Source of the DNA: Candidatus Woesearchaeota archaeon
GTDB taxonomy: Archaea; Nanobdellota; Nanobdellia; Woesearchaeales; UBA525
Length of the DNA stretch: 32,736 bases
Assembly: GCA_018221245.1 (NCBI GenBank)
Contig: JAAOYH010000061.1
Coordinates: forward strand, 1-32,736
Direction of reading: 5' to 3'
Shown here: positions 13,221 to 32,131 of the stretch, piece by piece
How the letters are laid out: each line of letters opens with the position of its first letter
Numbering within the stretch: the first letter of the stretch is position 1
Made by a program: the position numbers and the translations under genes
Notes under the pieces: model-generated
What the model saw: only the letters and a program-made list of their open reading frames with translations
Database searches by the model: none
Told to the model about the DNA's origin: nothing

Positions 13221-13453
13221 CGTGGATCCTCAAGTTCTTCAATAATCTCTTCCTTCGTATACCAAAGATATCCTACGAAGATATCAGGTATAGGTTCATC
13301 TACTTGAAACAAGACAATTCTATCAACATCAACTGGCTCATTACTTATTCTAGCGTCAATAAGTCGTCTTGAAGTGGACCTGTTAATCATCTCTTGAGTG
13401 ACAGAGAGATAAGGAATTAGAACGTATGCGGTACCATCTACAAACTTAATCAT
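13211..13453 (-). CDS. Small hypothetical protein
   Basis: 80 aa, ATGA-type coupling with upstream CDS. Confidence 0.5.
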   Translation of the reverse strand: MIKFVDGTAYVLIPYLSVTQEMINRSTSRRLIDARISNEPVDVDRIVLFQVDEPIPDIFVGYLWYTKEEIIEELEDPRWG

Positions 13454-18248: not shown

Positions 18249-20471
18249 TTAGACGGAACTTGTTGGTTCAATAGGCCCTGGTTCAGGGATCGCTACGTCA
18301 CCAGTGGGTTCAATCGGTGGTTGTGGAACGTTTACTTCTTGTTGTTGTTCTAATCCTTCAACTGGAACTTGTTGCTCTGGAGGGAATGCCCCTGCTTGTA
18401 CGTCTATATTAACGTCAGGCTTTGGTTGATTCTCAAGCTCTTCTTCTGCTGCTTCTGCTTCAGCGGGAGCTGATTGAAAGAATACAGGGAACATCTTAAT
18501 CTCCGCTAATGCTTGTAACATTGCAGGATTCTTCTTAGCTTGTTCAACCATCATGCTCTCATGAACGAGTATGTGATCTTTTAAAGTTTGTTGCTGTTTA
18601 ACGGGAGTTTGTTCTTTGAATGAATACTCTTGAACAGCACGCATATGAATATTCCAATGCATGATGTGATCTTCATACTCAGCAGGCATAGACTCACCGG
18701 ACTCATGGATAATCATTTGGTTCTCAGCTTCAGCAGACTTAACAGCAGCAGTAGCCATATCGATGTATTTGTCTGACTGTCCGAACTCAACCATGTCAAT
18801 GACTTGTTCGTTAGTGAACATAGTTGGGAACTCTTTATTAAGATCAATGATTGTTTGGATTCTTGCAGCTTTAGACTGAGGAAGTGAAGAAGAGTTTTGT
18901 ACTCTAATGTCATAAGGCTTAGAGAGGTTATCGGAATCAAAGAAGACAGTCTTCCACTTATCGTTCTTTCCTAATAACCGAATCATTCTTCCATCAGTGA
19001 CGTCGTAGTAATCACCAGCAACAGCGAGTGTCTTAATAGCCACCCCTTTAATGAACTGATTCCACTTTAAGATTTGTTCGTTAAACCGCTCTGACTCTTG
19101 CTCTGCAAGGAATTGTAAAGCGATACCAGACTTAACACCTGCTGGTGTTTGGCCACGAGAGATATCAAAGACACCTGAGATCTGTTGGAAGTCTTGTTTA
19201 ACTAGATCTAGCATCTTAAATAATTCAGGAGATGTAGGGTTAGACTGAACCAACTGGGGTGGCACACCACCTTTGTACTGCACAATGGTGATGTCATTGC
19301 CTAAAGATGTAAGAGATGTGGACCCAGCTGGAACCATCCATTTAGGATGCGAAGTTAGATACTCATTCCTTAAGATCATATTGATGACGTTGTTATAAGT
19401 AGCGGTAAGTTGTTTAACTGTTTCAAAGAAGCTCACTCCATATGTTTGACCTGGTAGATCAATGTCAGTGAATCTTTCGAAAGGAAACTCTCCATGAGAG
19501 AAAGGATGTTCTATGTTTGTAAGGATGACTTCGTTTGTGAATTCAATGAATCGTCCTTGGGGCATTTCAGGAGTCTTCTTATGCCAGAACTCCCAGACAG
19601 CAACTTCATTGATGAGTCCGTTTAGCTCCATGTTCTCGAAGTCATAAACTTGATCTAGGTCATCAGATGTAATCTCTTCAGCTTTATCTGGATACTTAAG
19701 TCTTAGAGCTTCGACACTCATGATCTTACGTCTGAAGACATAATCCACATCATCGAACTGAGTCTTCTTTTGCATGAAGATGTCAGAGCTTAGGACTACT
19801 TCGTATTTAACGTCTCCAACTTTGAGAGGTTCTTTAATGACTACTGGTTTCCCAGTCTCATCCTTTTGAGGTTTCCCGTTAGAATCTAGTAATGGAACTT
19901 TCTCACCGTCTTTAGGAGAATCAGGATGCAGGTCACCTAAACGAGGATCCCAAGTAATCCATAGGTATGACTCACCCATGATCTGAGAGTTCCTAGCTAT
20001 CTCAGGAGTGAGCTTGCCTTCGAACTTCTTGGTGTACCAAATGTGGTCTAGTAAGGCCTTAGTGGCACTAGCAGAGGCTTCATCTTCGAACTCATTGTTA
20101 GTGGGTAAAATAGCAACTGCAGGTTTAAACTTAATGATTCTGCTTACTCTGTTTTGAGTAAGGTCATAGAGGTTATTGACTACGATCTTCTTAACTGATC
20201 TTGATCTGTCTGCAGTTCTGTCTCTGATATCCCGTCTTGTCTCTTGGGACTCAAATTGGATACCTCTGTAAAGGGCTACGTTTCTTCTTACTTGTCTAAG
20301 CCTGTCATCTACTTCAGTAGTAAGGAAGATCTTCTCTCCTCTTAACCAGTCTAAGACTTTCTTTTGATTCTCTTTGTTATCAACACCGATTGACCAGATA
20401 GGTTTAGTGGGACGAGCAAACTCAGTGTCGTCGCTCATGCTGTCAAAAAATTCAGTCCCTTGTCTTGTCAT
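18249..20471 (-). CDS. Portal protein
   Basis: Start refined to ATG 20471 (MTRQGTEFFDSMSDD) with GGGGGAA SD; large helical protein with 'TATYNNVINMILRNEYLTSHPKWMVPAGS', 'DLVKQDFQQISGVFDISRGQTP' typical of podovirus portals. Confidence 0.75.
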   Translation of the reverse strand: MTRQGTEFFDSMSDDTEFARPTKPIWSIGVDNKENQKKVLDWLRGEKIFLTTEVDDRLRQVRRNVALYRGIQFESQETRRDIRDRTADRSRSVKKIVVNNLYDLTQNRVSRIIKFKPAVAILPTNNEFEDEASASATKALLDHIWYTKKFEGKLTPEIARNSQIMGESYLWITWDPRLGDLHPDSPKDGEKVPLLDSNGKPQKDETGKPVVIKEPLKVGDVKYEVVLSSDIFMQKKTQFDDVDYVFRRKIMSVEALRLKYPDKAEEITSDDLDQVYDFENMELNGLINEVAVWEFWHKKTPEMPQGRFIEFTNEVILTNIEHPFSHGEFPFERFTDIDLPGQTYGVSFFETVKQLTATYNNVINMILRNEYLTSHPKWMVPAGSTSLTSLGNDITIVQYKGGVPPQLVQSNPTSPELFKMLDLVKQDFQQISGVFDISRGQTPAGVKSGIALQFLAEQESERFNEQILKWNQFIKGVAIKTLAVAGDYYDVTDGRMIRLLGKNDKWKTVFFDSDNLSKPYDIRVQNSSSLPQSKAARIQTIIDLNKEFPTMFTNEQVIDMVEFGQSDKYIDMATAAVKSAEAENQMIIHESGESMPAEYEDHIMHWNIHMRAVQEYSFKEQTPVKQQQTLKDHILVHESMMVEQAKKNPAMLQALAEIKMFPVFFQSAPAEAEAAEEELENQPKPDVNIDVQAGAFPPEQQVPVEGLEQQQEVNVPQPPIEPTGDVAIPEPGPIEPTSSV

Positions 20472-20489
20472 CCGTTCCCCCAAAGGTCA

Positions 20490-24906: not shown

Positions 24907-25194
24907 TCATACATTGGTTAGTACGAAATCTCCAAGACCCTTCTCTAGCTTGAGAACTTGAGACTCTGATAGGTAGAGATCGTATTCTACTTCGATAGCA
25001 TGGACTACTTCATGAATGAACACGTAGAAGGTTTCTCCGTGAGTGAGTCCTTGTTTGATGTAGATGGTGTGAGTTTCAGGATCCATGAGGCCATGAGTAT
25101 CTGGGAACTGCATCTTCCTTTTAAACTTGAGTGACCACTCGTTATCCCCGATGTGAAAGGTCTTCTTATACTGCCTTGGGGTTGGTAGCTGCAT
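24907..25194 (-). CDS. HExxH putative metallopeptidase-like protein
   Basis: 95 aa; 'ETFYVFIHEVVHAIEVEYDL' zinc-binding HExxH helix. Confidence 0.55.
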   Translation of the reverse strand: MQLPTPRQYKKTFHIGDNEWSLKFKRKMQFPDTHGLMDPETHTIYIKQGLTHGETFYVFIHEVVHAIEVEYDLYLSESQVLKLEKGLGDFVLTNV

Positions 25195-25212: not shown

Positions 25213-25614
25213 CTAGCCTTTCCACTCAGCTCGCCTTGGTCTTACGTCTAGATGTACGAAGGTCTTATACTTCCCACGTCCACCCTTATTGATTCCCCAC
25301 TGCTGATCTAGGATCTTAGTTCCTACTTTATGTAGTACTGACGGAGTGAGAACACGACTAACTATGTCAAATGCTTTTCCTTTAACGTGTTGAGAGTTCT
25401 TTACTCCACCAATAGCTTTGTTGTGAGCAGGGCATCTGTAAGCAGAGGTAACGTGGATAGGTGCTCCAGTCTTATCTCTAATGCGCTGTAGTACATTAAT
25501 AGCATCAAGTGAGTAATGGAACTCATCAGGACAGTTTCCACATCTACATGCTAATTCGTTGCTTCTGAAGTTAAGAGAGACTTTGATATCTTTCTTTTTA
25601 CTAAGCTTAATCAG
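25213..25614 (-). CDS. Peptidase M15-family endolysin (VanY / L-Ala-D-Glu peptidase-like), probable CTG start
   Basis: Manual translation: (L/M)IKLSKKKDIKVSLNFRSNELACRCGNCPDEFHYSLDAINVLQRIRDKTGAPIHVTSAYRCPAHNKAIGGVKNSQHVKGKAFDIVSRVLTPSVLHKVGTKILDQQWGINKGGRGKYKTFVHLDVRPRRAEWKG*. Conserved SxYRCPxHN, HxxGxAxD, HLDV. Not in the ORF track. Confidence 0.8.
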   Translation of the reverse strand: MIKLSKKKDIKVSLNFRSNELACRCGNCPDEFHYSLDAINVLQRIRDKTGAPIHVTSAYRCPAHNKAIGGVKNSQHVKGKAFDIVSRVLTPSVLHKVGTKILDQQWGINKGGRGKYKTFVHLDVRPRRAEWKG

Positions 25615-26000
25615 AATCGACCACAGACCTTTGATACTAGAGTACCGATCTTATCTTTAACGTTTTGAGCAGAGCACTGCCATTTAGGTGGGATAGCAGT
25701 AGCTGTAGCAGAATCGATGAGAGTGTTTAGGATAGATCCACAAAGGATTCCCATGTCTAGAGAGGCTTTGAGAGAGACGGATGAGCAGACCTTTAGTTTC
25801 TCACTCAAGATAATTTTCATATCAGCCACGATCATCTCAGGAGCTTCACATTGTAGTTCTTGAGCAACAGCTCCTCCAGCTTTCCAAAGCATAGAGTGAG
25901 CTATTGGACAGAGGATAGATTCACCTATTGAAGGTTTCTTAGCATCTTCAGAACAACCGGCGATTAAGAGTAGTAGTGGAATAAGAATAAGTTTTTTCAT
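25611..26000 (-). CDS. Lipoprotein next to the endolysin (lysis-associated?)
   Basis: Start refined to MKKLILIPLLLLIAGCSEDAKKPS: signal peptide with lipobox LIAGC; several Cys; CTGA overlap with endolysin. Confidence 0.6.
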   Translation of the reverse strand: MKKLILIPLLLLIAGCSEDAKKPSIGESILCPIAHSMLWKAGGAVAQELQCEAPEMIVADMKIILSEKLKVCSSVSLKASLDMGILCGSILNTLIDSATATAIPPKWQCSAQNVKDKIGTLVSKVCGRF

Positions 26001-26110
26001 TATTGAAACATCTCGGTGATTTAGCGTCTTGTCAACTATAACGCACCACATAGACTCCTAGAGACACTTGATTGTTTAGGTTTGTCGTTATTATTATAGC
26101 CCACTGCAGC

Positions 26111-30937: not shown

Positions 30938-31287
30938 TCTAAAAACTTGTTAAGTAACTTCTCTGCATCCTTAACGCTTCGACACATCCCAGAAAAAGCT
31001 CCCAAGCTATTAGCATTCTCTATAAAGTTCCGCTGTTCAGGAGTAAGTGATCCAGTCTTAGACTTAACTTCAATCGCTAACATCCGACCTCCCTGCATCA
31101 CTCCCAAGATATCAGGGATACCCTTCATAGTCGTGTTCCTACGAAACGTACGCTTGGCTACATCATAAGTACCCTGTGTCTTGTTCACCCAACAAAAGAT
31201 ACCTCTACACTTGAAGTACTGAACGATAGCCTTTTGGATATCAGATTCTTTTTCTTTCTTAATTAGCGAGCTTGACACTGAGGACAT
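30919..31287 (-). CDS. VRR-NUC domain nuclease
   Basis: 122 aa; 'KGIPDILGVMQGGRMLAIEVKSKTGSLTPEQRNFIENANSLGAFSGMCRSVKDAEKLL'. Confidence 0.8.
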   Translation of the reverse strand: MSSVSSSLIKKEKESDIQKAIVQYFKCRGIFCWVNKTQGTYDVAKRTFRRNTTMKGIPDILGVMQGGRMLAIEVKSKTGSLTPEQRNFIENANSLGAFSGMCRSVKDAEKLLNKFLEQSEET

Positions 31288-31432
31288 CTAGCTTCTCCTC
31301 TATTCGAATCAACCGGTGCTCTAATCGCTCATACTCTCTTATTGTTACAAACGTTCCATTCGCATAAACCATCAATGAAAACACTGATGCTATTGCACTA
31401 GTTAGTATGATTAAGATTGGAGTTATTCGCAC
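31259..31432 (-). CDS. 57-aa TM + coiled-coil protein, GTG start (holin or i-spanin-like; unlisted)
   Basis: GTG 31432 with AGGAGGAAGAA SD: (M)RITPILIILTSAIASVFSLMVYANGTFVTIREYERLEHRLIRIEEKLDVLSVKLAN*. Overlaps both neighbours. Confidence 0.55.
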   Translation of the reverse strand: MRITPILIILTSAIASVFSLMVYANGTFVTIREYERLEHRLIRIEEKLDVLSVKLAN

Positions 31433-31694
31433 TCTTCTTCCTCCTACACCACTTCAACAACTTCTCTGCGTCATGTGAGTTGGTAGAAAAATAGTTCTCC
31501 AATTCTTGAGCCTGCCGAGTATATTCAGCGTCATCAGCCCCAATACACTCAGCAGTCCCATCCCCACTTAGAATACAAACTTCAATATCAGGTCCGTTCT
31601 TGCAACCTAAAAATAATGTGCTTAAAAGACTAACTAGAAATAGCGTCTTTAAGTAATTTAGCTGCTGCACGTCGTTCCTCTTTCGTCTTCGCAC
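31398..31694 (-). CDS. Small lipoprotein (possible o-spanin-like)
   Basis: 'YLKTLFLVSLLSTLFLGCKNGPDIEVC' lipobox-like; true start may be GTG 31670. Confidence 0.5.
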   Translation of the reverse strand: MRRRKRNDVQQLNYLKTLFLVSLLSTLFLGCKNGPDIEVCILSGDGTAECIGADDAEYTRQAQELENYFSTNSHDAEKLLKWCRRKKSANNSNLNHTN

Positions 31695-31833
31695 TTCTCA
31701 CTGCAATAGATGCATCCTCAATCTTCTTAACCTTACCGCGCTCAACCATCTCACCAATAAAGGCCATCAGCTGAGTGATAAGCTTTCCGATCTTTGGAAT
31801 AGCTATGAGAGCTTGTAAAATCTTTAAGATCAT
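31630..31833 (-). CDS. Small hydrophobic/amphipathic protein (holin-like candidate)
   Basis: 67 aa 'MILKILQALIAIPKIGKLITQLMAFIGEMVERGK...'; starts immediately after stop of upstream gene. Confidence 0.45.
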   Translation of the reverse strand: MILKILQALIAIPKIGKLITQLMAFIGEMVERGKVKKIEDASIAVRSAKTKEERRAAAKLLKDAISS

Positions 31834-32019
31834 TTACTTCTTTCTCTTCTTTTCAATAGAGATCGGTCCAGATCTTCCAACAAGAAGATTCTTAGCTCCC
31901 TTTAAAACATTCATTACCATTTGAAAAATCGAGTTACTCGCAAGTGCTGGAATTAAAGCAAGACCCTCAGACACAGCAAGTAGTACAGATACGATCATTA
32001 GAATTGATTCAAGATTCAT
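31834..32019 (-). CDS. Small membrane protein (holin-like candidate)
   Basis: Start refined to MNLESILMIVSVLLAVSEGLALIPALAS with GGGGGA SD; Lys/Arg C-terminus. Confidence 0.5.
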   Translation of the reverse strand: MNLESILMIVSVLLAVSEGLALIPALASNSIFQMVMNVLKGAKNLLVGRSGPISIEKKRKK

Positions 32020-32131
32020 TTTTATTTCCCCCAAAGAAATGTGGCCACTAAAAGTGGGAGTAAGGAAGTACGTCTACTAACCTCTCATTAACCCGTAGTT
32101 CATCCATGAACCCAGTCTCTCCCATAACTAA

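Follow-up and report, generated by a model that had tools for sequence, protein, structure and literature searches.

An M15 endolysin frame without a standard start codon in a tailed-phage contig, and a candidate CTG start at the stop codon of the preceding lipoprotein gene

The window analysed here, a stretch of 32,736 nucleotides, carries on its minus strand a phage M15 endolysin frame from which the codons ATG, GTG and TTG are entirely absent. The frame is open for 145 codons, from 25650 to a TAG at 25215-25213, and is bounded upstream by a TAA at 25653-25651. The original prediction had noted the absence of these codons between the domain and the upstream TAA, which holds, and there are none in the domain either. 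The stop codon of the preceding lipoprotein gene, TGA 25613-25611, is overlapped by CTG 25614-25612 in a 4-nt CTGA, and 133 codons lie between this CTG and the TAG (Table 1). We consider it probable, though well short of certain, that this is an ordinary endolysin gene translated from a near-cognate start by termination-coupled reinitiation, most likely at the CTG and less likely at one of the flanking ATT codons. Ribosomes would finish the lipoprotein at its TGA and reinitiate on the overlapping CTG (or, less likely, on a flanking ATT), and the product would be a Met-initiated enzyme of 133 residues. If so, a lysis gene is run from a near-cognate start through translational coupling, and ORF callers that accept only ATG, GTG and TTG miss the sole endolysin recognised in the phage contig. 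The relevance of this would be chiefly to the annotation of phage lysins.

Table 1. Features of the endolysin region (all on the minus strand) and the evidence for them
Feature	Position	Strand	Evidence or remark
Lipoprotein with signal peptide and lipobox (MKKLILIPLLLLIAGC), upstream gene	25611..26051	-	weak spanin-like match, E 0.007
ATT-CTG-ATT, three successive in-frame near-cognate codons at the stop of the upstream gene	25609..25617	-	
CTGA, proposed CTG start overlapping the lipoprotein TGA	25611..25614	-	same geometry as six ATGA junctions
M15 (PF08291) endolysin gene, 133 codons from the proposed CTG	25213..25614	-	profile matches, homolog alignment
ATC (I10), rival start, aligned with the ATG of the short-form homologs P12024S and FGH and an internal Met of D478	25585..25587	-	
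Small HExxH protein (HEVVH, zincin motif), downstream gene	24907..25194	-	phrog_1233, E 4e-10; sub-threshold DUF6782 metallopeptidase

In sequence terms this is a phage M15 endolysin gene of the ordinary kind, whose product is predicted to cleave peptidoglycan. It matches PF08291 with an E-value of 1.8e-20 (73.5 bits against a curated cut-off of 23.2), the single match to this family in the assembly, and the PHROG endolysin family phrog_894 with an E-value of 1.7e-35 (123.7 bits). The metal-site motifs SxHxxGxAxD and the C-terminal HxD are intact. Six phage endolysins with 39-43% identity to the product align with it without variation at S74, H76, G79, A81, D83, H121 and D123. The profile matches and the invariant motif residues bear out the earlier description of the product as a complete-looking M15 peptidase. 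In its whole domain, its length and its metal-binding motifs it is like the phage M15_3 endolysins (PF08291; phrog_894), among them those of Nonlabens phage P12024S, Escherichia phage K1-5 and Vibrio phage FGH. However, these use ATG starts that mostly fall near I10, whereas the window endolysin has no standard start. The family profile matches a single solved structure, PDB 1lbu (E 2e-8), a muramoyl-pentapeptide (D-Ala-D-Ala) carboxypeptidase; this is a 213-residue chain matched across just 46 profile positions, and not a short stand-alone phage enzyme. No close relative of the endolysin was found in phage, plasmid or genome-contig collections, the last of which yielded distant relatives only, and a DNA search against phages gave no match.

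With not one ATG, GTG or TTG in the whole frame, a standard start internal to it is impossible, and this candidate was ruled out. Within the bodies of the other genes of the window these three codons make up 3.5% of codons, a frequency at which a frame of 145 codons would be free of them with p ~0.006. Codon usage scores +28 bits in this frame and is negative in the five other frames. All of the ~50 other M15 frames examined in phages, plasmids and genomes had a standard start codon located at or ahead of the domain. TTG had been said to serve as a start elsewhere in this DNA. Such starts do appear in the ORF list, but 4-11 codons after most of them comes an ATG, probably the true start, and TTG use in this phage is thus probably rarer than the list suggests. 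The TTG starts at 20483, 32034, 11493 and 3640 (minus strand) are each followed by an ATG at such a distance, and the ATGs at 20471 and 32019 are preceded by a GGGGGA-like Shine-Dalgarno (SD) sequence that overlaps the TTG.

Four in-frame near-cognate codons lie near the domain, namely ATT 25617, CTG 25614, ATT 25611 and ATC 25587; further upstream, within the lipoprotein gene, ATC 25635 and CTG 25626 are also in frame. Codon log-odds in the endolysin frame are negative across 25650-25615, and the highest-scoring coding start by codon usage is the codon directly after CTG 25614-25612. The geometry of the overlap recurs in the window. As had been claimed, other genes use ATGA at such overlaps, and six junctions of this kind were counted. 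The coincidence of CTGA is a modest one because any C-ending codon before TGA yields CTG in that frame. The codon signal, the recurring ATGA geometry and the relative L040, discussed below, leave CTG 25614-25612 the best candidate for the start, as originally proposed. At one of the ATGA junctions, that at 13453, the TGATTAAG after the start is identical to that after CTG 25614. The starts at 13453-13445 and 25614-25606 (minus strand) have TGATTAAG in common (ATGATTAAG and CTGATTAAG), and both encode M-I-K if the CTG is a start. The SD energy before the CTG is -3.4 kcal/mol, from a weak match, AAAGG, 13 nt upstream. Several points weigh against the CTG start: no close homolog was found that could show the CTG to be conserved, the SD is weak, the closest homologs start at I10, and the contig is a single metagenomic consensus.

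An alternative is that the real or typical gene has a standard start codon and that the contig departs from it, through a single-base assembly error or because it records a minority or damaged form; either a base differs at one of the near-cognate codons, or an indel would join an upstream start that is now out of frame. We regard this as unlikely, while giving it some weight. The window is one metagenome-derived contig, no other M15 frame among the ~50 lacks a standard start, and CTG and ATC are each one base away from ATG. However, the rest of the frame is undamaged and its codon usage normal, so that it has no sign of decay, and errors in short-read consensus sequences are rare per base. 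Initiation at ATC 25587-25585, giving (M)KVSLNF, is a less probable reading. The Met of P12024S and FGH and an internal Met of D478 align with I10, a purine-rich stretch lies immediately upstream, and the closest homologs, which begin at I10, do not share the residues that precede it here. But ATC is a very poor start codon, its SD energy is just -0.9 kcal/mol, and both the codon signal and the PHROG signal reach upstream of it. The comparison of SD energies between CTG and ATC is a weak one because many genes of the window have weak SDs and the AAAGG lies 13 nt from the CTG. In the relative L040, I-K-V-S stands at this position although the protein starts from an ATG three codons upstream, so that I10 is not necessarily the trace of a lost Met. 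The original prediction had also called the N-terminus read from the CTG family-typical. This was overstated: residues 5-8 do contribute ~3 bits to the PHROG match, but the closest homologs start at I10, and by the alignment the residues before it may be called family-typical with weak support at most.

Two further readings concern the surroundings of the lipoprotein stop. A start at an adjacent ATT (25617 or 25611) in place of the CTG seems improbable to a greater degree than one at ATC. Both ATTs lie in the endolysin frame at the stop codon, and rare use of AUU as a start is known from infC (cited in PMC2268962), but nothing favours the ATTs over the CTG, and the NTGA overlap geometry is unique to the CTG. 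Least credible is a lipoprotein-endolysin fusion, made by a -1 frameshift close to the lipoprotein TGA, which would be carried across the membrane. The two frames do overlap for 13 codons (25650-25611). However, the overlap shows no codon signal in the endolysin frame, the whole lipoprotein frame is without an X XXY YYZ slippery heptamer, and RNA folding downstream is no stronger than that of shuffled sequences (z 0.47, with folding equally good in 131 of 200 shuffles). A programmed -1 frameshift, which had been listed earlier among the alternatives, was rejected for want of both a slippery site and a stimulatory structure.

Starts at near-cognate codons have precedents in bacteria and predicted examples in phages, and CTG is among them. 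In Salmonella, Ribo-RET detected initiation at CUG and AUU (PMC11005335), and in phage phiB124-14 a CTG start is predicted for ORF10 (PMC3338817). These codons and the AUU of infC are, like the CTG and ATTs considered here, one base away from AUG; the start proposed in the window would differ from those precedents in serving a lysis gene. A search of the available papers on endolysins and CTG start codons returned the phiB124-14 paper alone, in the available part of which the CTG ORF is not called an endolysin (PMC3338817). Reinitiation at start codons overlapping a stop is established in E. coli, and lysis in phage MS2 is a classic case (PMC2268962). A paper on reinitiation at non-canonical codons (PMC4648390) deals with scanning in eukaryotes and is not counted as support here. 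The ATGA gene pairs of phages and bacterial operons, which work by termination and reinitiation, have a similar 4-nt stop/start overlap, but the window gene has CTGA instead. An endolysin started from a rare CTG would be a minor twist on a known mode of translation start.

Reinitiation at the CTG, if it occurs, would be expected to give a low yield. It is doubtful, however, that the CTG has been selectively kept as a dose limiter, such that endolysin would come only from ribosomes that finish the lipoprotein, in low yield, and the timing of lysis would be tied to translation of the lipoprotein. That a weak start limits the lysin dose, as had been suggested, is pure conjecture; were it selected, it would constitute a simple translational lysis clock.

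The endolysin gene is second in a leftward run, after the lipoprotein gene and before the HExxH gene. No phage homolog of the lipoprotein was found by tblastn. The window is a tailed-phage contig, with terminase, portal and major head protein genes, and has been binned with a fragmented 844-kb genome; it has no tRNA genes. A search of 381 other genomes of the same class gave no relative of the terminase, and therefore no syntenic phage was found. By tblastn, the major head protein matched none of 50,697 phage records. In ctEqG8 and ctLwi270, phages related through the portal, no M15 gene is annotated within the stretches inspected. At 31259-32034 (minus strand) lie four short overlapping or adjacent genes, for which a PHROG search gave nothing above noise. 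They have apparent transmembrane or lipoprotein signals and could be a holin/spanin cassette distant from the endolysin.
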